Shown: positions 35,897 through 58,162 of the stretch, one piece after another
How the letters are laid out: each line of letters opens with the position of its first letter
How positions within the stretch are numbered: the first letter of the stretch is position 1
Assembly: GCA_033065855.1 (NCBI GenBank)
Contig: JAVXUO010000546.1
Coordinates: 1 to 64,000 of the forward strand
Length of the DNA stretch: 64,000 bases
Reading direction: 5' to 3'
DNA from: Escallonia rubra
Taxonomy: Eukaryota; Streptophyta; Magnoliopsida; Escalloniales; Escalloniaceae
Program-made: the position numbers and the translations under genes
The notes under the pieces: generated by a model
What the model was told of the DNA's origin: nothing
What the model saw: the letters and a program-made list of their open reading frames with translations, nothing else
Databases searched by the model: none

Positions 35897-38462
35897 ATGG
35901 CAGCATTGAGAAGTGGGATTCTCTTGGGCCTTATCCTCTTCTTCTTCTCTTCCACGTCCTTGCTCTGCGGCACTGTCCATGGTAATCCTAACTACAGGGA
36001 TGCCCTGGCAAAATCCATTCTCTTCTTCCAGGGACAGAGGTCGGGCAGGCTCCCACCTGCCCAACAAGTCAACTGGAGATCCAGCTCCGGCCTTTTGGAT
36101 GGACTTCCAGCCCGCGTACGTAATTTTATTATTAATACCATTTAGCTTTGGTTTTGATCTCTAAGCCAACTGTAACGAGTCTTTTTTCGCGTGACATTAA
36201 TGTGGCGGCGATGAGGAATATTTTCTCCTCATATAAAGTGAACCCGTTTGACTTACGGCGCTCAAAAACCATACCACTAGGCCTACTCGCATCACCGCTT
36301 GTGCTGCAAACCTGCGTTTTCCTTCATTTTAGGAAGAGAAATATGTGCATTTTATCTTGCAATGATTAGATTTATCCAGTGTACAGATTGTATGTTGCCA
36401 TTATAGCGTTGGTCTGGTGGTTCTGTTTTTGCTGAATCGACAGAAAATGGCAACACTATCCCAATTTCTACTTAATTCCTTTCATTCTATGACCACTATG
36501 GTGCTGCCGCTGATGTAGGAAGTTGACTGACCATATAGATAGTTTCATATGCTTAACTTTTAGAAACCATACAAGCGTGGACCCTCTAAAGGTACATGTC
36601 CTCAAGTAAAAGCGCCTCACATGTCGCTAAATGAGTAGTTTCATAACCAAAGTTAATGGCTTTGCCTACGAAATTAACCCACTGCTGGGATCCAAGTCAT
36701 TCCACTAGTATGAGCAAGCCTTGAAAGATCGCTAAATAATTGGCAGGTGGATTTAAGCGGAGGCTACTACGACGCTGGAGACAACGTAAAGTTCAACTTC
36801 CCAATGGCCTACGCTACAACCATGCTCTCGTGGAGTGCCCTTGAGTATGGCAAGCGGATGGGCCCCCAGCTACAAGAGGCGAGGGCCGCAATCCGTTGGG
36901 CCACAGACTACCTCCTGAAGTGTGCCACGGCCACGCCCGGTAAGCTTTACGTTGGGGTCGGCGACCCCAATGTGGACCATAAGTGCTGGGAGAGGCCCGA
37001 GGACATGGACACTGTCCGAAGTGTCTACTCGGTCTCTGCGAGTAATCCAGGCTCTGATGTTGCTGGGGAAACTGCTGCCGCCTTGGCAGCTGCATCCATG
37101 GTATTCCGGAAGGTCGATCCAAGGTACTCAAAGTTGCTCCTGAGAACAGCAAAGAACGTAATGCAGTTTGCTGTGCAATATAGAGGCACTTATAGTGATT
37201 CACTTGGCTCGGCCGTGTGCCCATTTTATTGTTCATATTCAGGATACAAGGTATGTGTTCGTCTTTGGTCTTTTCTTTACATTGTTCTTTTTCAACGTCA
37301 GTTTTTGTGTTACCATTGTCATAATTTGACTTCTATTTCCTGTGTTTTCGTGTTCTGGTTTGGACCTGTCAGGATGAATTGTTGTGGGGAGCTGCATGGC
37401 TGTTGACAGCGACTAACGATGCTTCATACTCGCACTTCATTCAATCCTTAGGAGCAAATGACGCAACGGACATTTTCAGCTGGGATAACAAACTTGCCGG
37501 AGCTTGGGTTCTTCTATCAAGGGTAAATCCATAGAAACTTAAAACACCTAGTATCATGCCAGTCCTTTTTTCTTTTGGCCTTTTGGTGATCAGTTCTCAC
37601 CTAGGCTCTTGTCATATATGGTCCCTGATCAACTGCAGAGACGCTTCCTGACCAATGATGTGTCGTTTGAGCCATTTAGACAGCAAGCTGAAGATTTCAT
37701 GTGTAGAATTCTTCCAAATTCTCCTTCCTCGAGTACACAATACACTCCAGGTACTGCAAAATTTTCAAACAAGATCTAGACTTGACTATAAATACCTCAT
37801 TTCAAAGCTATAAAATGCATTAGCGGCAAGATTGTGTTCTCAAATATTCTCTGTTTTGTTTGTGGATGAAGGTGGTCTGATGTACAAGCTACCTGCAAGT
37901 AATCTCCAATATGTTACCTCCATAACCTTCTTGCTCGCCTCCTATGGCAAATACATGAGTGCCACAAAGCACACTTTTAACTGCGGGAACATTTTGGTCA
38001 CGCCAAGCACCCTGCGAAACCTTGCCAAGAGACAGGTGATTACCAGTCCCCCCCTCATTAAACTTTGGCATTAGCGCAGCCCTTGTATTCAACAATTAAT
38101 TTATGGACTAACCAGTGAACTACTATATGTAGGTGGACTACATTTTGGGAGAGAACTCAATGAAAATGTCCTACATGGTGGGATATGGTGCAAATTATCC
38201 GAGAAGAATCCACCACAGAGGATCGTCGTTGCCCTCATTGACAATCCATCCACAGTCGTTTGGCTGCGAGGGAGGTTTTCAACCGTTCTACTACACTGCG
38301 AATCCTAACCCAAACATCTTAGTGGGAGCAATTGTCGGAGGTCCAAACCAGAATGATTTCTTCCCAGATGATCGGACAGACTATAGTCATTCAGAGCCAG
38401 CCACGTATATAAATGCTGCTATCGTTGGACCTTTAGCTTACTTGGCTTCGAGCTACACTTAG
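35897..38462 (+). CDS. Endo-1,4-beta-glucanase, glycosyl hydrolase family 9 (6 exons)
   Basis: Exons 35897-36115, 36747-37250, 37373-37522, 37639-37750, 37872-38035 and 38133-38462 give 492 aa. All junctions are GT-AG and phases are consistent (0,0,0,1,0). A hydrophobic signal peptide covers about residues 1-29, so the enzyme is predicted to be secreted to the wall. It hydrolyses internal beta-1,4-glucan bonds. GH9 features: GGYYDAGDN (78-86, catalytic Asp), [10 protein letters not shown] (404-413) and [18 protein letters not shown] (462-479, catalytic Glu 471). The chain ends at [10 protein letters not shown] with no C-terminal carbohydrate-binding module and no N-terminal membrane anchor, which fits plant class B. 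The length is normal for that class and no lesion is seen. The start is the first ATG; an earlier in-frame extension begins at a TTG and is not needed. Confidence 0.95.
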
Positions 38463-40450: not shown

Positions 40451-41841
40451 CGGTCCGTTTGGAACCAATTCTTTTAGGATTTGGATTTCATATTTGGAGT
40501 TGGATTTGAAATTCAATTCACTTTTTTTTGTTTGGAACGAAAGGGAATTCTAATCACGGAATTTCAATTTTGTGTTTGGAGAACAGAGGAAATGAAAAGG
40601 TAATAAATTTTTAGGCAATTATATCATTGACTTACGATGAAAAATAAATTACGGTAAGCGGTTTCAAGTGCGCTAGTGCCACCACATGGTGGTGGCAGCA
40701 CTACACGGGGTAGCAACATCGACTGTGGAAGCGGTGGGGTGGTTAAGTGATGGTAATGATGGTAGTTGTGGTATTGAGGTGTAACTGGTGGTCGTCAACT
40801 AACGCCAATAGTGATGTCGGTGGCAGTAGTGGTGGCAATAGTGGTGGCGGCGACAGTGGCGGTAGTGATGTCGGCGGCGATGGTGGTGGTGGCGGCTGCA
40901 GTAGTGATGGTGGTGGTGGTGGTGGCAGAGGTGATGGTGGCAATAGTGGTGGCAATAGTGGTGGTGGTGGCATTATTGGTGGCTGTGGCGGCGATAGTGG
41001 TGGTGGTGGTAGTTGTGGTGGTGGTGGAGGTGGTGGTGGCGACGGTGGTACTGGCGGCGGTGGTGGCAGTAGTGGTGGTGGCAGTAGTGGTGGCGACGGT
41101 CGTAGCTGTGGCAGTACTGGCGACGGTGGCGGTAGTGGTTGGGGGTGCAGTAGTGGTGGCAATGGTGGTGGTGGTGGCATTAGTGGTAGCGACAGTGATA
41201 GTTGTGGCAGTACTGGCGGTGTTGGCGGTGACGATAATGGTGGCGGAGGTGGTGGTTGTAGTGGTGGTGGCGATAGTGTTAGCGGTGGTTGTGGCGGCAG
41301 CGACAGTGGTAGTGGTGGCGACAATGGTGGTGGTGGTGACGGTGGTGGTAGTGACAGTAGTGGTGCTAGTAGTGGTGCCGGTGATGGTGGTGGTGGCAGT
41401 AGTGGTGCCAGTGGTGGTGACAGTCGTAGTTGTAGCAGTATTGGCGGTGACGGTAATGGTGGCGGAGGTGGTGGTTGTAGTGGTGGCTGTGGTGGTTGTA
41501 GTGGTGGCGGTAGTGTTAGTGGTGGTTGTGGCGGCAACGACAGTGGTAGTGGTGGTGGCGGTGGTGGTGGTAACGACGGTGGTGGCGGTAGCGGCAATGA
41601 AGATGGTGGTGATTGGTTCATAGTTGGAGAGATCCAGACAAAATGGTAAGATATGTAAATAATTAATTTTAATTCAAGTAAAGCGAAATCCCATGAAATC
41701 CGACCATTTTTCATCGGTTTTCATACTATAAAAATAAATCTAATCAAATCCCGTGAAATTCAATTCTGATTCCCTTTTTTACAGTTCCAAATAACAAATT
41801 TTGGATATTTGAAATGAAATTCCATGGTTCTAAATACACTC
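40451..41841. mobile_element. PIF/Harbinger-like MITE expanded by a GGN repeat
   Basis: The left end CGGTCCGTTTGGAACCA and the right end reversed, GAGTGTATTTAGAACCA, align in register without gaps, and TAA lies directly outside both (40448-40450 and 41842-41844). A 3 bp TAA/TTA duplication with a GTTTGG-type end is the mark of PIF/Harbinger (Tourist-type) elements. GAATTTCA/TGAAATTC blocks continue inside both ends. The interior is mostly trinucleotide repeat, and no transposase is visible. Confidence 0.68.
40743..41640. repeat. About 0.9 kb imperfect GGT/GGC trinucleotide tract
   Basis: Imperfect (GGT)n with GGC, AGT, GAC and GTT variants, arranged in longer recurring modules such as GGTGGTGGCAGTAGTGGTGG. 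All frames stay open because of the repeat, producing Gly-rich and Val-rich reads forward and Pro-rich reads reverse. This is low complexity, not a gene. Confidence 0.92.
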
Positions 41842-41844
41842 TAA

Positions 41845-43480
41845 GTTTTAAAAGGTAACAGACCGTGACCAACAACTTTGAAAAGGTATCAGCCATGTTC
41901 ATCCGTCGTTGACCCGTTAAAAAAATGTACTTTTTTGTTGCTGTCATAAATGTTTACTTTTAAATAAATTGTACTGCCCTCATACTTTTATACAGTATGC
42001 ACAAAATATATACATAGAACATATTTCCCTTTCCCTTCTCCTCTTTTTCCCTCTTTCTCTTTTTGACAGAAACACTTAGTAACACCCGGCAACAAAGCAG
42101 CAAGACTACCGTGACTAACCACTACCTTCATTGCGGACCAGCCACCGACACCACATCGCCCCACTAATGTAAATCACAAAACCGCCACAACCAATTACTC
42201 CCTCCATCATGGACCAGCCAAAAAATGCCACATCCCCTATTACCACAAATCACAAACCACCACATCACCATAGTTGCAGCGCTTACATCCCAAAATCACT
42301 AGTAGGAGATGCTTTGATATGTTATTTTTCTTTTTTCTACTGAAACAAATTTTTGTGAATACTGCAAGTTAGGCGGCCTGGATGGGCTCAAGGGCCAGAC
42401 CATACTCCATCCACTGTCAAAATCTCGTGCCCCTGCCTAGTCCATTCCATTTACGGGCCGAACGACATTTATCCACATCCAACCCATGAAAGTTTTGGTG
42501 AGCACAGGCTGAACACTGACTACTTACGGGTTGTCCATGGTTATAGAATAATTCTGTTAACTAAAATTTTAAGCATATCAACTACCATCCAAGTTTACTA
42601 CCTAGTCATCAGTTTTTATTTACTGAATTTTTTGAGTATATCACTTACTATCTATGTCTAGTACTTAGTCATGATAATGAAGAAAGGTGGAGTAAAGTAT
42701 CAAAATAGATTTAAATATAAATATGGAATCAAAGCTTTAGGACAAAAAAAAAGGAAAAAAAAAAGGACAAGAGTTTCGAAACAATATTACTAAGTATAAT
42801 CTATAATAAGAAATAATGAAGAAGAAGAAGAAGAAGAAGAAGAAGCCTTGAAAGGTCTCTAAACCGTACATGTAGTGAAAATTTAAAGACTAAAGAAAAA
42901 AAAAACTATCATGTACATGTAGAATTCTAATATATAGTTCATACTATATAAAAGTTTGACGGTTTGCATTTCTCAGGGCTGGGTGGACTTTAAAATATTT
43001 GCCTGCGCCCGGCTCATATTATTTACGGGCTCAAAATTTTGTGCTCGCATCTACCACTTTCTCTATAAAACTGAGCTCACGCCTATATTTATATGGACAG
43101 GCACTGATTGCCCAACTCAAATTGCATCCTTAGTTTTTGTTTACCTCATTGATCATATGATACGAATATATATGTTCTCTTGTAAATATTTTGTGCATAA
43201 CACAAGATTATAGCTAACAAACGAGTAGATTTGGAAAATTGTGCCATTGTTCTTTTTTTCTTTTTGTTGATTTTTCTTAGTAAAACCGAATAGAGATTAA
43301 GTGTTTTTCTGAGAAGTTCAATTTTGCCCTAGTATTCTTGTCTAGACAACATTCTTGCCCTAGTATTCTCCCAACATTTTTTCTGTTTTCATATTTCATT
43401 TTCTTTCCCATAGTTCCAAACAGAGGGTTCGCCTGCAAGGAGGTTGAATACGAATTTTTGAGGTGAAAGACTATAAAGTT
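41845..43480. other. Intergenic AT-rich DNA
   Basis: No gene was recognised. A (GAA)n microsatellite lies at about 42818-42845. The last bases, AAGTT (43476-43480), are the target site of the following retroelement. Confidence 0.55.
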
Positions 43481-45044
43481 TGATGTCAAGGAAGGTGGGT
43501 TCGTACCTACGTGGAGGTGCCACAAAGGATGCAGTCTGAATCAGCTGCCAGCTGTACAAAATGAGACACAATGAGGGTGGAGTAAGGACAGAGAGCAAGG
43601 CTTCCCAGATAGGCCGTAAGGAATGGCAGTGTTGCGGAGACACGATGGAAAAGAATAGGGCCGACAGTCGACAGTCCAAGCTAGGGTCCAAGTCAAGGTC
43701 CGATGTCACGGTCGATATTATGTCCAAAGTCACAAGACAATTGTGTTTCTCTCTCTAGAATTCAAGAGCTCTGGATTCTAGAGTGAGAAAGTGATTTTGT
43801 GAAATGAAAAAGTTCTCTCCCTAAAATGAGTTTCGAAGTCCACTATTTATAGGCAAAAGTATGCATGTGTCATCAAGTGCCACATGGCGTCCCCTAGGAG
43901 TGACACGTCACCGGGGTTCCAAAAATATCAGTTCTCTGTTAGACTGTCGCTTACCAAATTCGCACTACCTGCCCTGCACAGCGTCGCTCTACCTGTCTGA
44001 GAAGACTGACCACACAACGACGGCATGATCAGAGTAAGCCTGTTGCCTCAGTCACCGATCCAAGCCCTTGCTGAATCCCACAAATATGTGTCAAGAGACG
44101 CGTAGAGAACCTGACAGCGGTGAGGGAGGCCCCTGTGACCAACTGCTAGGTGGACTAGGCGCGATGCCCTCCAAAGACCTGCTCCCGTCTCGGAGTGACC
44201 CTGGGGTCATCGTCTTGGGGGCGCCGATGATCACCTGTAATGTGATTGGACGTGGTCGCAGCTCAGTGCCTAGTGTCATGCAAGTCACCCCAGGCGGCGA
44301 TGGCTTTGTGGTAATGAGCCCATCCAGCTGCGAAGGGTCCTCGTGCTAGAGCACTACGAGCGGAGCCCCTCATAATGCTGCACACTCCGGAGAGTGGGTC
44401 AAAGCATGTTCCACGTCCATGGCATGGGCACATGGTGTGGTGAATGAGTGTGATTCTCGGGGGCATGTAACATGATGGTGGCGCATGGGTATGGCGCATG
44501 GGCGCGGTGCCTACATCACGATACATGATTGTGGTGCATGGGCGCGGTGCCTATAGCACGAGACATTGATTGTGGCGCATGGGTGACCTGCCAACAGCCC
44601 GAGACATGATTGTGGGGCAAGGGCGTGGTTCCAACGACACGAGACATTGATAATGGCGCATGGGCGCGGCGACGAGGGACGCTAAGTCGGCGTGCGGGTG
44701 ACGGTGCTTGGCAGCGAGTGACGGTTGTCATGGCGTTGGCGGCGATAATGGTTGACGTATGGTCACGGGTGATGAGTGAGCATTGCTGACCATAGTGTGT
44801 TTGAAGGCGCTAAGTCCATTTAGTGTATTTTCTAAGGAAAGTGGAGCCAAAGTCCCTATATTGGCGACGTAAGAAATACATTGTTATGAATTGTCGCGAA
44901 ACGTTGATGAAAAATGCGCGTGACTTGAACGCATGTATTTTGACCGGTTGAAAGCATTGAACAATTGACCGTTGAATGTGTGACATGTTGCGTAAAATGG
45001 GACCTCGGTGGGCCCTTGGGTGCGACCAAAGTAGGTTGGGAACA
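43481..45044 (-). repeat. 3' LTR (copy B)
   Basis: The ends are TGATGTCAAGG and TTGGGAACA on the plus strand, preceded by target AAGTT. The LTR promoter context TTTATAGG lies at about 43846-43853. It holds about 4-5 tandem units of about 41 bp (GATTGTGGCGCATGGGCGCG type) at about 44470-44665. Confidence 0.88.
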
Positions 45045-45494
45045 TATGCCCCCTCCGTGAGATATGCGCGGAAGGGCAACTCGAGCGGGCGCCGCATGCA
45101 TAGACATTGTTGAGTAAAAAAGACATGTAGCGCAAGAAATACATTTTTTTTGTGTAGTGCGAAAAAAGATAATGTGAATTTTGAAGAGAGCGGAAAAGAA
45201 TTGTAGCGCGAATGTCATGAGATGTGTTTCGTAGCCTAGCGCAAAAAGAGAATTGTAGCGCTAAAATAGAGGTTGCGTCGCAAAAATGGGAGTGCGTGCA
45301 ATTTTTGGTAACGGAAAGATTAATATCAAAAACTTTTGTGACAACTTCCAACAAAAATAGCACGCAAAAAAGTAAGTTAGTGCGAAATGGGGTTGTGCGT
45401 TTGAAAAATAGTTGTTGGGATTTAGGGGAGAGGGGGGGGGGACTTTTGGTTTGAAATTAAAATGAGTGGCCAAGATTGAATCTTGGCCCACACC

Positions 45495-45502
45495 TATATA
45501 AA
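45495..45502 (+). promoter_or_regulatory. TATA box of the antisense gene
   Basis: TATATAAA on the plus strand lies 98 bp before the first ATG (45600) of the opposite-strand cassette, inside the retroelement and just outside its 3' LTR. Position and sequence fit a plant core promoter. Confidence 0.65.
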
Positions 45503-45599
45503 GAGAGGGGGGAAAAGTCTTTCATTCTTCATTCATTCTTTCAAGACTTATAGCAAAAAGAGAGAAAGGAGAAGAGAAGAAAGAAGAAATTTTGAAGAC

Positions 45600-47580
45600 A
45601 TGGCCAAAGGAGGTAAGGAGAGGGGAACAAGTGGGAGTGGAGGGGGGAGGGGTGGTGGGAAGTCCAACCTTACTGAACCAAGGCACTCGGCCATGACCGA
45701 GGGTCGGCGGGGAAGGGGGTCGGCGGGCATTCCTTGTTCGGTGACCATAGGAATCGAGGGGAGGGAAGGGGGAGGAAAGGAAAGGGAGAGAGAGATGGAA
45801 AGGGAGAGAGGAGGGGAGGGGGAGAGGGAGAAGGGAGGAAAGAAGGGGAGGGGAAGGGAGCTCAACCAGCGTGGGGGGGTCGGCCACCCTTGGTGCTTCG
45901 GCGAGTAAGGGTACATCGGTGGGTTCTGTGGGGAGTGAGGGAAAGGGAAATAGATTGGGGGAGGGGGGAAAGAGGGGTGCCGAAAGTCATGGAGGGTCGG
46001 CCGTTGTTGGATCGGCGAGTGCAAGAGTAGGCCAAGGTAAGGGGTCGATGGGCATGGTGGGTTCGGCCGGGGGGAGTTGTTTGGCCGAAGGAAGGGGGTC
46101 GCGGGGTGTGGTGGGTGCCGATGGCCAAGGCAAGGGAAATGAGAAAGTGTCCATACGTGATGGGCAAGATGGTTTGCCCGAACCCGTGATCGAAGCCGAC
46201 CGTGGTGGCGATGGTGCGGCCGAACAAGTGGTTGAAGGCGAGCACGCCAAGCCAGCGCAGGTGGTGAAGAAAATGAGGGCAAAGAAGTGGGCGAGGCCGC
46301 GAGGTGTGGCGATTAGCGCGTCACGACCGTCGTGGGGCACGAAGATCGTGCCCGTGTCGGCACCACCTATAGATTATTCCGCGCTGATGCTGACAGGATT
46401 ACCCATGCACGAGGAGTAGGATGCGCAGGCGACCCGGATGAGCGGGGATGAACGAGTGCTGCATACACAGTTGCTGGATATCTTGGCAAAGATGAAGAGT
46501 CACCGGAAGGGAACATATAGTGGGTGGATCAAGCATTTCTTTGGTTCGGCGCAGGCGAAGACGAGGCAGAAGCTGGGCAATGCGGCCAACTTCGTGATGG
46601 GGCCGTACCACGGCAATGAGAGATATGAGATGATGGCCTTCTTAGCGATGTTCCTGTCGAGGTAAGTTCCGTACCGTCTCCTTTCTTTATTCTTGTATTA
46701 TGTTGTATATTTTTACTCTTGCCATGCATAATATGCCGAACTTGTACTTAGGAAAATTTGTTATGTAGTTAATAACACATCATTCTGCCATGCGCTGCAC
46801 TGTGGGATAGAGTCGTGATATATGCTTTCTGTCAATATCTGTAGGTTTGTATTCGAGGGGACACCGAAGGACGGCATCTCCCCCATGGTGTTCCCGCTCG
46901 CTATTTGGATGGCGCAGGGCCGGCGTGTCGGTTTGGCTTCTGTATATCTGGGCACTTTGTACTCGTGTCTGAATCAGTTTGTGAATGACGTGAAGCGGTC
47001 ACATCGGCGTTATCAGGTGACTACGTACGTTGACTGGATGTTCCTGCAGCGGTATCTGTATGAGTGTTTTCCAGACTACCGCCCGACAGGTTATCCTCTC
47101 AAGCATCTGTCTCCGACGATGGGTACGGTGACACGGCCATGCAGGTCACGACAGGTGGCTTTGTCGTGCTCTGGCTCACGGGCATATGCGTGGGTAGGCA
47201 TTAGGAGGCCGGAGTGTCCGTTGGTGCAGGTCCTGGATAGGCGTGATGAGTGCTTGCGACGGCCGTATATGGACATGCATCCGTCATATGGGGTGCCACT
47301 GTGGTTGCATGTAGAGGACATTACGACAGCATTGACCAGAAGAGGGGACTTAGGGCCGGGACAATTGATACTTCTGGTTGTATATTTTCCAGGTTGGCTC
47401 CCTGTTCTAACAAATGATGGCGGGAAGCCCACCGAGTCCCGGCACTATGTGGCTAGATACAGCCCTGAGCGTCTGTCGATGGCTTTCGGGTATTATTTGG
47501 AGCCCCCATGTGGGTATTGTAGTCCGTGGAGTGTGGCGACTGCCTTTGAGTATACACGATATGACAGAGTCCGTTGGTGA
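45600..47580 (+). pseudogene. Antisense plant-mobile-domain (PMD) gene of the Tat element
   Basis: Opposite to the retroelement's own genes. The N-terminal part (45600-46420) is low in complexity and Gly/Ser/basic-rich. The next part (46438-46665) holds HFFGSAQAKTRQKLGNAANF and ends at a GTAAGT. After about 180 bp, which may be an intron, the part at 46844-47580 reads DGISPMVFPLAIWMAQGRRV, then a GLASVYLGTLYSCLNQFV-type helix and VDWMFLQRYLYECFPDYRP. These fit the plant mobile domain (aminotransferase-like, PF10536), found in MAIL/MAIN host proteins and known to have been taken up by transposons, with extra ORFs of this kind reported in Tat-type elements. It is driven by a TATA at 45495. The cassette is broken overall. 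The PMD assignment is by eye. Confidence 0.72.
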
Positions 47581-48515
47581 CCGGCACCGACGACGGAGTG
47601 GAAGTGGCCTGGGACGTTGTCAGCTGGGGTGGTGACAGCGGTGTACGCCCGGAGGTGGGAGCGACTGCGATCGAACTGGGTGGAGTGGTTGGCACAGCCG
47701 GCGGGCAAACGCCGGTAGGTTGATGTGTTTGTTTGTGACATAGGTTTGAGTTTGATATCAGCCTCGATTGCTAGACTGAGTGGGATGCCGGTGCTAGTTA
47801 CTGGGTGCTCCGTTGCTAGCTCGGAGAGGGAGCCTGAGGAGGTTGGCGGGGCCTGATGATGATGCCCAAGGGGTGACATTAGGGAAGAACCGGTGGTGCA
47901 TGTGCTGAGGGTGACAGGGGCTTGCAAGGGTCCCTTGTTGTTGATGAGAGTTGGGATGATGGAGACGGCTCAGCAGGCTGGCACGGGCACGTCAGCCCCA
48001 TATGTATCAGGGTCAAAGAGGCCGTGCAATGTAATAGATGAGTCGGACTTCGAGGTTAGCATTTTTCTTCTTATTAATTCCAATTGCATGTGTGAAGTGT
48101 CAATGGACTTATGCATATATATTGATTGACGGTTGTTTTGATAGAAGCTCGATGAGGGGGCTAGCGAGGAGCGCAACGAGCCGATATCCGAGGTCGAGGC
48201 GGATGAGGCTATGGAAGCCGAGGCGATGGGGACATTAGGGGTCGGTGAGGTCGATGAGGTCGAGACACTGGATGCCAGTGTGACTGAGGAGACCGGGGCG
48301 GCAGAATATGTGGTGGAGCCGGAGAGGCAACCGAGTCCATCGTGATTCGTAGAGGAGACAATGAAGGCTTTATATGGCGGAGCAGTGGGGGATACTCTGA
48401 TGTTTGATGCTGGGGTGAGTGGTGGATGTGCATGGAGACAGAGGTCGTTACAGGTGACCGTGGGGAGCCTGAGGATCCCGAGATTGTGGTGACAACCCCG
48501 GTACAGGGATAATGG

Positions 48516-49219
48516 ATGCCGATTCAGCCAGTTGCAGAGAGTCTTCCGGACACATTGTCGGGGTCAGCGGTTGACGCTGGTACTACTCTTCTGGCGATGC
48601 ACTCAGCGGCTGTAGGCGCGCGGACGACTGTTGGACTGTCAGATGTTCCTTCAACGAGAGGTAGTGTTGCGGCAGCCGGAGATGCGAGCAAATGGTCTTT
48701 GAGTGGACAGGTAGATGAAGTGTCTTGGGAGGGTCTTCAGCTGCCTGTCAAGACGGTGCACCAGCTGGAGCTTGTGAAGGTAGGGTTCCCGCAGACATTT
48801 GAGGGGGTTACTGTGGGGAACCCGGTGCTGCGGAGGTGGGTGTATGGCGGGTTTGTAGAGTGGTTGGTGCCCTTTGCTAGGGTGCCAATAGCGGGCTGGA
48901 TGCCAGAGTTCATATCACAGTCACTTGAGGAGTTTGCGCCGTTTACGTCCTTGGGCCTTCAGTTGGATTGGTTTTTGGACTTCTTGAGATCGAGGAGTGA
49001 GAGTCGGGATGCGGGGGAGAGGTTAGTGTCGTGTGCATGCGGGAGACGCTGGTGGGGAGGCAGCGTACAACATTGGAGGAGGAGGGGTCCCAGATTGCTA
49101 GTGAGCTTGCCATGATTGACAGACAACTGGCTGACTTACACAGGCAGGTGGCTGACTTACAGAGGCGGGGGGCTGAGGTGGAGGCTCGAGAGGTAGATCG
49201 GCTGAGACGGCAGACATAA
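48516..49219 (+). pseudogene. C-terminal part of the antisense cassette, coiled coil
   Basis: An open stretch on the plus strand with HQLELVKVGFPQTFEGVTVG and then VYGGFVEWLVPFARVPIAGW-type text (unrecognised globular part). It is followed by a heptad-rich segment at about 49060-49215 (ASELAMIDRQLADLHRQVAD) that looks like a coiled coil, then a stop at 49219. It follows the PMD block and ends tail-to-tail with the retroelement's integrase (49723). It probably belongs to the same antisense gene. It is broken, and its function is unknown. Confidence 0.5.
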
Positions 49220-49722: not shown

Positions 49723-51214
49723 CTATGCGTAGTATTTCTTCAGATAGCGGCCGTTGATAGGAGTTGTGATCCGTCCATCTTCCGTGTTGAGCAGGAGATA
49801 AGAGCCATTGTCTCTGGCTGCATGCACTTGAAGTGGGCCTTCCCAATTTGGTGTGAACTTGGGGGCTGACATGTTGGCACGTACATGCTTGGCGGCTTGG
49901 TGGACAAGGTCGCCTTCAATAAATGATCGTGGTTTGACTGTCTTCCCGTAGGCTTTCTTGAGCTGTTCATGATACTTCTTCATGCAGCGCAAGGCGTTGG
50001 TTATTTTTTTATCAAGGCCCTCAGGGCTGCCTTTCTGGTTTCCTTCTCCCCGAGACCAATGCTTAGGGAGAGTCGAGCCGAGGCGATCGCGATCTCAGCT
50101 GGTACCACACACTCATCCCCGTAGACGAGGGAAAAGGGTGTGGCTTTCGTTGCTGTGTGCTTGGAATTTCTGTAAGAGCAAAGTGCCAGACTTAGCTTTT
50201 CGGACCATGACCCACTGGCGTCATGAACCATGCGTGAAAACACACGAGCACCATCTTGTTGGAGGCTTCAGCTTGACCATTGCCTTGTGTATAGTAAGGA
50301 GTTGATGTGGCATGGTTGATGTTGTACTCTTCCATGAGAGCTCAAACATCTGTGTTGATAAACGGCGTGCCGTTGTCGGATATGATACACCGGGGGATGC
50401 CGAAGCGACAAATAAGGTGATCGCACAAGAAGTTAGCAACAGCGCCACCCGTGGCTTGTCGTAGGGGTAGGGCTTCGACCCATTTCGTAAAACGTTCTGT
50501 TGCAACCATGATCCATGTGTGGCCTTTAGATGTTGGGTGTATGGGGCCAATGAGATCGAGGGCCTAAGAATGAAATGGCCAAGGAGCCAGGATCATGTGA
50601 AGATCAGACGCCGGTGTGTGCATTCTGTCAGCGTGCCTCTGGCAGGGTTGACAGTGTCGAACATGGGAGATGGAGTCGGATTCCATAGTTGGCCAATAGT
50701 ATCCCAACCTTAGCAATTCTGCATACAGATCCTTGATGTTCCCCGCAGTCACCATTGTGCACTTTATTGATCACCTATACTGTTTGGGAACCTTACAAGC
50801 ATCGCAGGGTGCGCCCCGAAAAACCTTTGAAAAATAACTCGCCTTCCGTCACAAAACACCTGACCGATTTTCGTTTGATAGATCGGGTCGAGCTACGGTC
50901 AGGAGGTAGAATCCCATAAGATAGATATTGAATGAAAGGTTGGGGCCAGTCACCCTCGACGTTGATCACAAGAGCTTCTGCACTAGCTGGCGCATATAGG
51001 CATTCAGGACAATCCCGTGTATATCTGAAACATCCTTGGCCATGGATGGCCAAAAGAGGCCCATACGTTGAAGGCGACGGTATATAGAGGGACCGTCGAG
51101 GCCGCAACACTTTTGATGGCCAAGTTGAAGTTTGTGCTTTGCTTCTTTCGGTGCCAAACACCTGGCTAGCGTGCCTCCGGGGCATCGTATGTACAAGACA
51201 TCTCCCAACATCAA
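49723..51214 (-). pseudogene. Integrase region of the Tat element
   Basis: Zinc-binding part with LGYYWPTMESDSISHVRHCQ and CQRHADRMH, catalytic core pieces, then a C-terminal part with SEKLSLALCSYRNSKHTATK and TPFSLVYGDECVVPAEI. The end is typical of Tat/Athila integrase (PNWEGPLQV and RYLKKYYA). It is broken. Confidence 0.85.
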
Positions 51215-51280: not shown

Positions 51281-51985
51281 CTAATCGTCTGTGGCAGTGT
51301 CCTTCGGTACTAAGTTCAAAGCTATGCAGGGTTCGGTCCTCTTGATGATAGTTAGCATTCGTTGTTCACCATCAACATCTATCTTTGTCGCGATCGTGGC
51401 CAAGCTGTATGTATGTCTATTGTGGCACCTGTTGTGATGTTCATACTGGCCGAGTCTTCCTTCCAAGTGTTGTACCAAGGCACGATAAGGTGTCAAGGCT
51501 GGCTCCTTGACTGCGAACTCCCCATCAGCATGCTTCATGATCAAGTTTGAGTCTCCTTTCACACATAATGACTTAGCCCCCATATTGATGGCTAGCATGA
51601 GGCCAATGACGAGTACCTCATATTCAGCTTCATTATTAGACACTGGGAATGCAAGCTTGAAGGATAGGGATGTGGTAACACCATCTGGGCTCTGAAGGAC
51701 TATTCTAGCACCCCCTTACCTGAGAGGTGCTCCATTGAGACCTTTGCCAGTGGCTGAGCCGTCGAACTCAAGCGTCCACAATTCATCGATTTTGGTGATC
51801 AGAGATGTCTCATCCCCAGGCAATTGAACCGAGGTCGGTTCGTACTGTTGGCATGGGAAGAAGGCCAATAGGTCTGCAAGTGCTTGACTTCGTAGAGATG
51901 TGGGATTCTTGATAGATAGGCCAAACTCGGCCAAGAGCAACAGCCAGCAGGTAAGTCGACCGGATAGGGCAGGGCGGGTGAGCAT
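51281..51985 (-). pseudogene. Second (archaeal-type) RNase H region
   Basis: LEFDGSATGKGLNGAP and SNNEAEYEVLVIGLMLAINMG, then KGDSNLIM, are the D, E and D motifs of the additional RNase H that distinguishes the Tat lineage from other Ty3/gypsy elements. It lies between the first RNase H and the integrase. It is broken. Confidence 0.85.
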
Positions 51986-52021: not shown

Positions 52022-53296
52022 CTAGTGTGCCAAAAAGTAATGTCTGAATTTCTGTAAGGCGTAAACCAAGGCTAGATAGTGTTTCTCGAGCTCGGAGCAA
52101 TTGGCTTGAGGTCCCCTGATCATCGGGCTGAGGTAGTAAACAGGTTGCTCCATCCCATCCACCTCTTGAGCAAATAAGGCCCTGATGGACCTGGGCGTGG
52201 AGGTCAAGTAGAGTAAGCGTGGGATACCTCGCTGTGGCACTACCATGGTCTACGGCGACATGAGGACCGACTTGATCTATTCAAAGGCTTGTTGTTGGGG
52301 CGCACCCCAACTCTATGGTGCGCTTTTTCATGTCAAGTGCTGAAATTGTGTGATAAGCTCGGCCAACGCAGGGATGAATTGGTGAAGGTAAGAAACCTTT
52401 CTAAGGAAGCTCTTCAACTGTTTGGTGATTTTGGGAGAGGGCATCTCTTGAATGGAAGCGGCTTTAGAAGGGTCAACGTTGATGCCATGTCGACTGACCA
52501 GGAAGATGAGGAATTTACCGGAGGAGACTCCAAAGGCAAATTTTAGCGAATTCATCCACATATTGTACTGGCGACAACGATCAAAGACTGCTCAGAGGTC
52601 AGTGAGGTGATCACTTTCCTTTTTAGACTTGATGATGAGATCGTCGACATAGTCTTCCACTGTACGGTGTATCATGTGGTGGAAGATGGTTGTCATCGCC
52701 ATATGATAGGTAGCACCCGCATTCTTGAGACCAAAAGGCATGAATTTCCAACAGAAGTTGCCCATGGGAGTGCGGAAGGTTGTCTTGGCACAATCAGCAG
52801 GATTCATCGATATTTGGTTATAGCCGGCGAAACCATCCATGAAGGACAAGGTTTCGTGTCCAGTAGCGACCTCTGTAAGCATGTCAATGTTGGGCAGTGG
52901 AAACTCGTCTTTCGGGCACACCTTGTTCAAGTCCCGAAAGTCAATACAAATGCGGACTTGGCCATTCTTCTTTTGTACGGGGAGGACGTTGGCCAGCCAT
53001 ATGGGATGAGTGATGGGCTCAATGAAGCCAGCCTGTAAAAGGCACTCTATCTCTTGCTTGATTTTCAACTCGAGCTCGGGGTGGAAGGTCTGTGGGTGCT
53101 GTCTGACAGGAATAGACCAGGTAGTAATATTGAGGTGGTGCGTCACCAAGGCAGGGTCTAACCCAGGCATCTTATTGTAACTCCATGCCAGTACATCGTG
53201 ATATTCGTGAAGGATGGTAACCAATTCCTCTCTTCGGCCCGGGGCGAGTTTTGTGCCAATGTACGTAAGTCGTGGTTCCTCCCCCGGGTTAGCCAT
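52022..53296 (-). pseudogene. Reverse transcriptase and first RNase H region
   Basis: The longest preserved block. LPVQKKNGQVRICIDFRDLN and FMPFGLKNAGATY are present, and the catalytic YVDDL is intact. It is followed by the connection part (GINVDPSKAASIQEM) and an RNase H piece (QPVYYLSPMIRGPQ and SELEKHYLALVYALQKFR). Overall the region is broken. Confidence 0.9.
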
Positions 53297-55942: not shown

Positions 55943-56393
55943 AGGTCTGGATGATCAAGACGACGGTGGTCACGATACTGGGACCTGAGCGGCGTCAAGA
56001 GCCGGCCCAAGTCTTAAAGGCTGGACTTGTGGAATGGATTGTTACGAGGCCAATGTCCGTATGGATCTTTGCATTTCCATAATGGCGGCAATTAGAGTGG
56101 TCTGAGAGTCTTGCAGGTTGGCTATGGTGGGAGTGAGCTATTGTATGGCTGCATTGACAACCACTTGCACATCAGGTGCAGCGACTGAGGGTTGATCTCG
56201 GAGTCGTGTGGGATTTGTCTCTTCTTGGTAACAAAAGTGGGCTTCTTCTTGTAAAGTAGGGTTGGGGCCCTGGCTGGTAGTCTTAGTAGCTCTCTGTTGT
56301 TCAGGCATGGTGACTGAGTGTGGAAGACAGGCAGACAGGCAGACTGCAATACGATGCTCACCTCCCCAACAGAGTCACCAAAATGATGCCAAG
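55943..56393 (-). other. Leader and primer-binding site of the Tat element
   Basis: The non-coding leader between the 5' LTR and gag. The reverse strand beside the LTR carries the TGGTGACTCTGTTGGGGAGG primer-binding site. About 240 bp of it matches the leader of the fragment at 15560-15805. Confidence 0.75.
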
Positions 56394-58157
56394 AAAAATG
56401 GGTTCGTACCTACATGGAGGTGCCATAAAGGCTGCAGTCCGAGTCAGCTTCTAGATGTACAAAGTGAGAGACAGTGATGGTGAAGTAAGGGCAGAGAGCA
56501 AGGCTTCCCAGATAGGCCGTGAGGAGTGACAATGATGTGGAGACACGACAGAGACGAACAGGTCTAACAGTCGACAGTCCAAGCTACGGTCCAAGTCAGG
56601 GTCCGATGTCACGGTCAATATTATGTCCAAAGTCACAAGATAATTGTGTTTCTCTCTCTAGAATTCAAGAGCTTTGGATTCTAGAGTGAGAAAGTGATTT
56701 TTGTGAAATGAATAAGTTCTCCCCAAAATGAGTTCCAAAGTCCAATATTTATAGGCAAAAGTATGCTTGTGTCATCAATTGCCACATGGCATCCCCTGGG
56801 AGTGACACGTCACCAGGGGTTCCAAAAATATCAGTTCTCTGTTGGACTGCCGATTCCCAAATTGGCGCTACCTGCCCCATACAGCGTCGCTCTACCTGTC
56901 TGAGAAGACTGACCACACAACAACGGCATGATCAGAGTAAGCACGTTGCCACAGCCACCGGTCCAAGCCCTTACTGAATCCCACAAGTGTGCGTCAAGAG
57001 ACGCAGAGAGAACCTGACAGCGGCGAGGGTTGCCCTTGTGACCAACTGCTAGGCGAACTAGGCGCGATACCTTCCAAAGACCAGCTCCCGTCCCGGAGGG
57101 ACCCGAGGGTCATCATCCTGGGGGAGCCGATGATCACTGGTGACGTGAGTGGACGTGGTCACAGCTCAGTGCCTAGTGTCATGCAAGTCACCCCAGGCGG
57201 AGATAGCTTTATGGTAATGAGCCTATCCCACTGCGAAGGGTTCTCGTGCCAGAGCACTACGAGCGGAGCCCCTCAAAATGTTGCACACTTTAGAGAGTGG
57301 GTCGAAACATGTTCCACATCCATGGTGGGGGCACATGGTATGGTGCCCGAAGGCATGTAACATGATTGTGGCGCATGGGCGCGGTGCCTACAACACGAGA
57401 CATTGATTGTGGTGCATGGGCGCGGTGCCTACAGCACGAGACATGATTGTGGCGTATGGGCGCGGTGCCTGCAACAAGAGACATGATTTGGCGCATAGGC
57501 ACGATGCCTACAGCACGAAACATTGATTTTGGCGCATGGGCGCAGTGCCAATGGCATGAGACATGATTGTGGCGCATGGGCGCTGTGGCAATGGCACAAG
57601 ACATTGATTGTGGCGCATGGGCGCGACGACAAGGGTCGCTAAGTCGGCGTGTAGGTGACGGTGCGCGGCCGCAAGCGACGGTTTTCATGGCATCGGGGGT
57701 GACAACAGGCGAAGTATGGTCGCGGGTGATGGGTGAGCATTGCGGACCATAGTGTGTTTGAATAAGTTAGGCAAAAAAAAAGGTGGCAGCAGCCCCCGCA
57801 TTAGGAGTGGCCGACCCCCCCTTAAAGAGGGTGGCCGACACCCCCCCCCCCCCCCTCTTAAAGGGAGGTGGCCGACCCCCCCTCGTTAAGGGAGGTGGCC
57901 GACCCCCTAAGGGGGAAAGCGCTAAGTCCATTTCGTGTATTTTCTAAGGAAAGTTGAGCCAAAGTCACTATATTGGCAACACAAGAAATACATTGTTATG
58001 AATTGTCGCGAAAAGTTGATGAAAAATGCGCGTGATTTGAACGCATGTATTTTGACCGGTTGAAAGTGTTGATCAATTGACCGTTAAATGTGTGACGTGT
58101 CGCATAAAACGGGATTCCCGGTGGGCCCTCGGGTGCGACCAGAGTAGGTTGGGAATA
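56394..58157 (-). repeat. 5' LTR (copy C)
   Basis: The plus-strand ends are TGATGCCAAG and TTGGGAATA. It contains about 6-7 tandem units of about 41 bp at 57356-57625. A GGTGGCCGACCCCC minisatellite with a long C-run (about 57840-57855) lies at about 57781-57915 and is absent from copy B. These explain why it is 200 bp longer than the 3' LTR. Confidence 0.88.
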
Positions 58158-58162
58158 AAGTT

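Follow-up and report, generated by a model that had tools for sequence, protein, structure and literature searches.

The window analysed here, 64,000 nt of Escallonia rubra DNA (contig JAVXUO010000546.1), holds a 14.7-kb LTR retrotransposon on its minus strand, and between pol and the 3' LTR of this element sits a plus-strand gene, antisense to gag-pol, with a match to the plant mobile domain (PMD). This raises the question of whether such a gene belongs to the element family and is maintained in it, and what its product might do there. From sequence comparisons we put at about 85% the probability that a family putatively of the Tat lineage carries here an accessory PMD gene that is antisense, contains introns, has a TATA box and is under selection, a figure that refers to the claim at the level of the gene.

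The host element and its relatives

The LTR pair was identified by self-BLAST and inspection of the ends, and the element has the components by which LTR retrotransposons are recognised, namely paired LTRs, a target duplication, a PBS and a PPT, the last two as PBS-like and PPT-like sequences. Its features in the window are as follows.

43476-43480 and 58158-58162, no strand: target-site duplication AAGTT, left and right copies, from the sequence
43481-45044, minus strand: 3' LTR, from self-BLAST and ends
45049-45056, minus strand: PPT-like run GGAGGGGG, adjoining the 3' LTR on its inner side, from the sequence
49723-50300, minus strand: 3' end of pol, presumed integrase by position and appearance only
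51284-51643, minus strand: RNase H-like RVT_3 piece (E 1.1e-7), taken as an additional RNase H
52595-53296, minus strand: reverse transcriptase (RT; RVT_1, E 3.7e-20)
56363-56380, minus strand: PBS-like sequence on the inner side of the right (5') LTR, from the sequence
56384-58157, minus strand: 5' LTR, from self-BLAST and ends

The PBS-like site by the right LTR, the PPT-like run by the left LTR, and the RT and RVT_3 matches on the minus strand agree with an earlier sequence-only reading in which the element lay in reverse orientation. Both the RVT_1 (52595-53296) and the RVT_3 (51284-51643) matches precede the presumed integrase region on that strand; Ogre and Retand are described as having a second RNase H, placed between the first one and integrase (PMC6317226), and we regard the element as a putative Ty3/Gypsy member of the Tat lineage. 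Integrase pieces at 49726-49992, 50004-50243 and 50224-50550 gave no significant Pfam match, and with broken frames in the window copy this stretch shows no clear frame (best dN/dS 0.52). A search of the plant's own genome for the primer tRNA with a paired-acceptor pattern returned 0 matches, and the single place found there with a T-arm pattern was rejected, ARAGORN predicting no tRNA at it; a plasmid search for the PBS end with the integrase stretch likewise gave no match.

The window copy is old, and both its pol and its plus-strand gene are broken. Across 1549 aligned sites its two LTRs share 87.9% identity, differing by 129 transitions and 58 transversions (K2P 0.134). Plant substitution rates lie between 2.5e-9 and 1.3e-8 per site and year, and at these rates the LTR divergence corresponds, very roughly, to insertion some 5 to 27 million years ago. 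The LTRs also hold a 40/81-bp tandem repeat (44491-44669 and 57360-57625) that differs in copy number; counted in 40-bp units, there are 4.4 copies in the first and 6.6 in the second.

The layout of the window element was surveyed across the same genome using two lists, one giving 150 PMD matches out of 816 candidates and the other 150 RT matches out of 5791. Among the matches listed, at least 58 PMD matches have an RT within 10 kb, and in all 58 pairs the two are in opposite orientation with the RT 3' of the PMD, so that the antisense placement claimed for the window element recurs in its family. The PMD-RT distance among the listed pairs is 1.4 kb in one and 5.5 to 6.0 kb otherwise (median 5783), and 14 of the 58 are stop-free in both parts, with PMD frames of at least 400 codons and RT frames of at least 1200; the family thus still has open copies, and the window copy is a broken one. 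The other 92 of the 150 listed PMD matches have no RT nearby among the RT matches listed, an outcome to be expected with 150 matches listed of each kind.

These pairs bear on a rival origin for the cassette, by which another PMD-carrying mobile element would have inserted, nested and privately, into the window copy. MULE transposons too carry PMDs (PMC5418596), and the same genome has further PMD repeat families, but the strand and place are identical in 58/58 listed pairs, the alignment to the window extends as far as the RT in 15 of 19 long loci, and in a set of 16 sequences the PMD distances correlate with those of the RT (Mantel r 0.64, p 0.0011), which argues that the gene travels with pol. 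We have rejected a private insertion on the shared strand and place, and its probability is close to nil; an ancient PMD insertion may have occurred when the lineage arose.

Predicted exons, introns and promoter of the antisense gene

The gene model for the window copy comprises three exons and two introns downstream of a TATA-like sequence.

45495-45502, plus strand: TATATAAA, putative core promoter for this gene (TATATAA conserved in aligned elements)
45601-46661, plus strand: predicted exon 1, first ATG to donor site (dN/dS 0.21 for 46420-46659)
46662-46844, plus strand: predicted intron 1, GTAAGT ... TGTAG, 183 nt (splice-site conservation and gain in PMD score on joining)
46845-48054, plus strand: predicted exon 2, remaining PMD match and continuation (dN/dS 0.24 for 46846-47577 and 0.42 for 47581-48054)
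48055-48144, plus strand: putative intron 2, GTTAGC ... GATAG, 90 nt (alignment judged by eye)
48145-49219, plus strand: predicted exon 3, heptad-like C-terminus (dN/dS 0.36-0.40)

When scanned against PF10536, for which the curated cut-off is 34.9 bits, the segment 46819-47577 alone scores slightly below it (32.8 bits, E 5.5e-8). Splicing in silico across intron 1 raises the score by 20 bits, and the two segments joined at the predicted junction give a match above the cut-off (52.7 bits, E 4.8e-14) that spans only profile positions 75-193, or 119/347. The PMD-like block proposed at 46438-47580 in the sequence-only reading is therefore correct as to the domain; it is not one frame, being two exons separated by the 183-nt intron at 46662-46844. 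The upstream segment 46420-46662 scanned alone gave no PMD match and just a sub-threshold one to DUF362 (E 0.047). Neither the N-terminal segment 45871-46416 nor the downstream segments 47581-47715, 48145-48342 and 48513-49112 matched anything in Pfam at E up to 1; TRP28 had no match in the segments scanned, and 46819-47577 had no sequence match among solved structures at E up to 1.

The window PMD is only 24-29% identical to four PMD genes of the same genome (L001-L004), which lie in tandem on one strand (G000:C922:1278226-1296817) with open frames of 643-689 codons. Other PMD repeat families are present in this genome, for example at G000:C85:82273-82800; at least some 50 listed matches have near-equal scores and a 468-codon frame, and further PMD groups among the matches listed have frames of 596 and 685 codons.

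In the window copy the gene has in-frame stops at 46417, 47578 and 48343, its open frame shifts again after 48342, and the N-terminal part of exon 1 is of low complexity with a broken and changing frame. Intron 1 unites the upstream and downstream frames within a codon. Its splice sites were counted in 27 anchored relatives (L012 could not be anchored and was left out), with GT present in 23/27, AG in 22/27 and both in 19/27. By intron length the relatives form two groups, one at 170-185 nt and one at 85-88 nt, between which the intron ends are homologous. For intron 2 (48055-48144) a like pattern is seen by eye in the alignment of relatives. The interval between exon 1 and exon 2 matches was also measured in 39 elements (window included) that were chosen by eye from two lists of 150, are mostly stop-free copies and are known by their coordinates only; among these the implied intron is 91 nt long in 20 and not a multiple of three in 26, and in many, open frames of several hundred codons flank it on either side.

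Upstream of the gene, TATA-like TATATAAA and the first ATG at 45601 are where they had been placed. Of 37 loci examined, 23 aligned across the TATA region and 14 did not, and dropping L027 (the same element as L033) left 22 distinct elements. In 20 of these 22 the heptamer TATATAA at 45495 is unchanged, the highest conservation among 227 seven-base positions (mean 0.21), a value biased somewhat towards TATA conservation by the restriction to loci aligned across it. The surrounding region 45380-45600 has no coding signal (dN/dS 0.74-1.15 in six frames, 13 relatives). The TATA is conserved and the introns make sense only when read antisense, so the gene probably has its own promoter.

Selection on the protein and the question of strand

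A DNA search of the same genome provided the best 40 of 429 candidates, being the window and 39 relatives at 76-87% identity, and 28 of the 39 (L010-L018 and L029-L047) were compared with the window by the method of Nei and Gojobori. In pairwise comparisons that all share the window and hence are non-independent, dN/dS in the plus frame is 0.21 for 46420-46659 in exon 1 (26 relatives) and 0.24 for 46846-47577, the PMD part of exon 2 (28 relatives), as against 0.14 for the RT used as a yardstick (15 relatives) and 0.61-0.97 across the six frames of intron 1 (10 relatives). Differences from the window at codon positions 1/2/3 number 1284/876/2304 in exon 2, a third-position excess, and 314/362/324 in the intron, where they are even. 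These values show that the PMD part is kept by protein-level selection across the family, as pol is, and the plus frame proposed for the gene is indeed conserved in this part among family members. Further downstream dN/dS is 0.42 for 47581-48054 (26 relatives), 0.40 for 48145-48342 (7 relatives) and 0.36 for 48516-49000 (26 relatives). The N-terminal stretch 46201-46416 gave no frame signal in 16 relatives, with 0.72 in the read frame and 0.70-0.91 in the others.

The compared relatives are likewise broken in the joined frame. In the degraded relatives the first stops of the exon 2 frame are nearly all TAG or TGA, with one TAA, a pattern expected from deamination of methylated cytosines.

A minus frame that shares its third positions with the plus frame also has low dN/dS, at 0.33 in the first and 0.39 in the second of the two stretches from the PMD part. 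In the window it has stops in 25/1994 and 194/6669 codon cells of these stretches, compared with 0 in the plus frame, a comparison biased by the choice of both stretches for their open plus frame in the window. Among the relatives, stops occupy 27/2018 and 62/6675 cells in the plus frame and 45/1994 and 178/6669 in the minus frame. In 47581-48054 the relatives have 33 stops in the minus frame and 93 in the plus frame, and in 49001-49216 the corresponding numbers are 1 and 11, so that the downstream part taken by itself leaves the strand undecided; the arguments for the plus strand therefore come from exon 1, from 46846-47577, from the splice sites and from the TATA. The same applies to the coiled coil that had been read as extending to 49219. 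Hydrophobic residues spaced 3-4 apart in 49001-49216 make it plausible by eye, but in 13 relatives a minus frame with fewer stops has a dN/dS of 0.42 there, close to the 0.38 of the plus frame.

A different explanation for the conserved locus is that the antisense transcript itself is functional, pairing with sense RNA to form dsRNA that limits the element, with the reading frame incidental. By its layout the gene overlaps the sense genomic RNA, and an antisense-RNA role has been raised as a possibility for such elements (PMC7264820), but protein-level selection and introns that join frames are unexpected of a noncoding antisense RNA, and we consider this explanation quite improbable. Restriction of the sense RNA by the antisense RNA may be an additional effect beside that of the protein.

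Possible roles of the product and relation to known systems

If the gene is expressed as its sequence suggests, the TATA promoter just inside the 3' LTR would direct a Pol II antisense transcript, and this pre-mRNA would be spliced at two or more spliceosomal introns to encode a PMD protein with a heptad-like C-terminus. The sense RNA is the template for reverse transcription, and in it the splice signals would be in the wrong orientation; the genome would then be copied whole and the introns would persist. The conserved splice sites and the persistence of the introns are consistent with antisense orientation allowing them to survive repeated RNA-mediated copying. As its most probable function, though with considerable uncertainty, the product may be a nuclear factor acting at the element's own chromatin.

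Several parts of this arrangement have precedents. Mobile copies of the PMD, which the sequence-only reading had mentioned, are established in the literature, where the PMD-A1 and PMD-A2 clades are exclusively Gypsy-encoded and widespread in angiosperms (Ikeda et al. 2017, PMC5418596). The window gene resembles these in being a PMD on a Ty3/Gypsy element, but the account of the clades there does not appear to cover strand, promoter or introns. In a REXdb survey 57% of Ogre elements had PMD extra ORFs (Neumann et al. 2019, PMC6317226), and these share with the window gene a PMD in an extra ORF and, putatively, the Tat lineage; ORFs were predicted in that survey as unbroken frames of 250 codons or more, so that split genes like this one would only partly be captured. 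PMD is commoner in Ogre and TRP28 in Retand (PMC6317226), which for the window element is only a hint. Among LTR retrotransposon consensus sequences, one survey reports PMD as the non-canonical domain that occurs most often (PMC9289625).

A similar layout is that of gene23 of Grande, an antisense accessory gene with its own promoter that likewise lies between pol and the 3' LTR and has a nuclear product; its description in the review mentions no PMD, and its transcription has been shown by experiment, that of the window gene being predicted from sequence (PMC7264820). Antisense ORFs mark recently active Retand elements (Vicient 2025, PMC11963269) and agree with the window gene in position and orientation, but mostly carry TRP28 instead of PMD. 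Neither a PMD on a retrotransposon nor an antisense extra ORF that has its own promoter is thus new to the literature (PMC5418596, PMC7264820). For conserved introns within such an antisense ORF our literature search gave no precedent, although Steinbauerova et al. 2011 possibly contains such a description.

The gene may be real and its protein serve replication, through nuclear import, RNA handling or integration. Other extra ORFs in antisense orientation have been suggested to act in this way, from the parallel with retroviral accessory proteins (PMC7264820, PMC11963269); such a role would fit the nuclear location of the Grande product (PMC7264820). The PMD common to the host silencing factors MAIN and MAIL1 (PMC5418596) points weakly to chromatin instead, the identity being low. 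We hold a replication role to be a serious possibility, somewhat short of an even chance, and at least as likely as an anti-silencing one.

An anti-silencing role would draw on the host PMD-C proteins MAIL1 and MAIN, which are required for silencing; they share the PMD with the window gene but are host genes with a silencing role (PMC5418596, PMC7156037). By this analogy the product could imitate or compete with host MAIN/MAIL-type proteins, which we offer as a tentative and rather doubtful suggestion. The fuller proposal, that an intron-bearing, self-promoted gene is held antisense and its PMD works against silencing by the host PMD proteins (MAIN/MAIL), which would set host and element PMDs in a direct arms race, seems to us unlikely, slightly more so than the imitation or competition itself. 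Ikeda et al. speculated on an anti-silencing function for MULE-borne PMDs (PMC5418596), and VANC of VANDAL transposons provides a transposon-encoded analogy for countering silencing (PMC6419827, PMC5735166, PMC10398659); VANC is, however, a different protein on a DNA transposon, and its anti-silencing activity has been shown by experiment, where ours is proposed by analogy (PMC6419827).

Conserved introns and a probable promoter make the antisense gene of this family unusually testable: some copies are open, the TATA is conserved and the introns are mapped, which opens its transcription, splicing and partners directly to experiment. The results would bear on the function of retrotransposon PMDs and on the direction of origin between host and element PMDs (PMC5418596). 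A 2020 review urged a search for antisense and spliced transcripts (PMC7264820), for which exact junctions are now given. There is also a consequence for annotation, in that surveys limited to long uninterrupted frames split or miss intron-bearing extra genes.

Elsewhere in the window, a glycosyl hydrolase family 9 gene has plus-strand exons at 36747-38459 (E 8.9e-67 and 5.1e-34), and a repetitive tract at 40743-41714 is open in several frames on both strands, its long ORFs appearing spurious.
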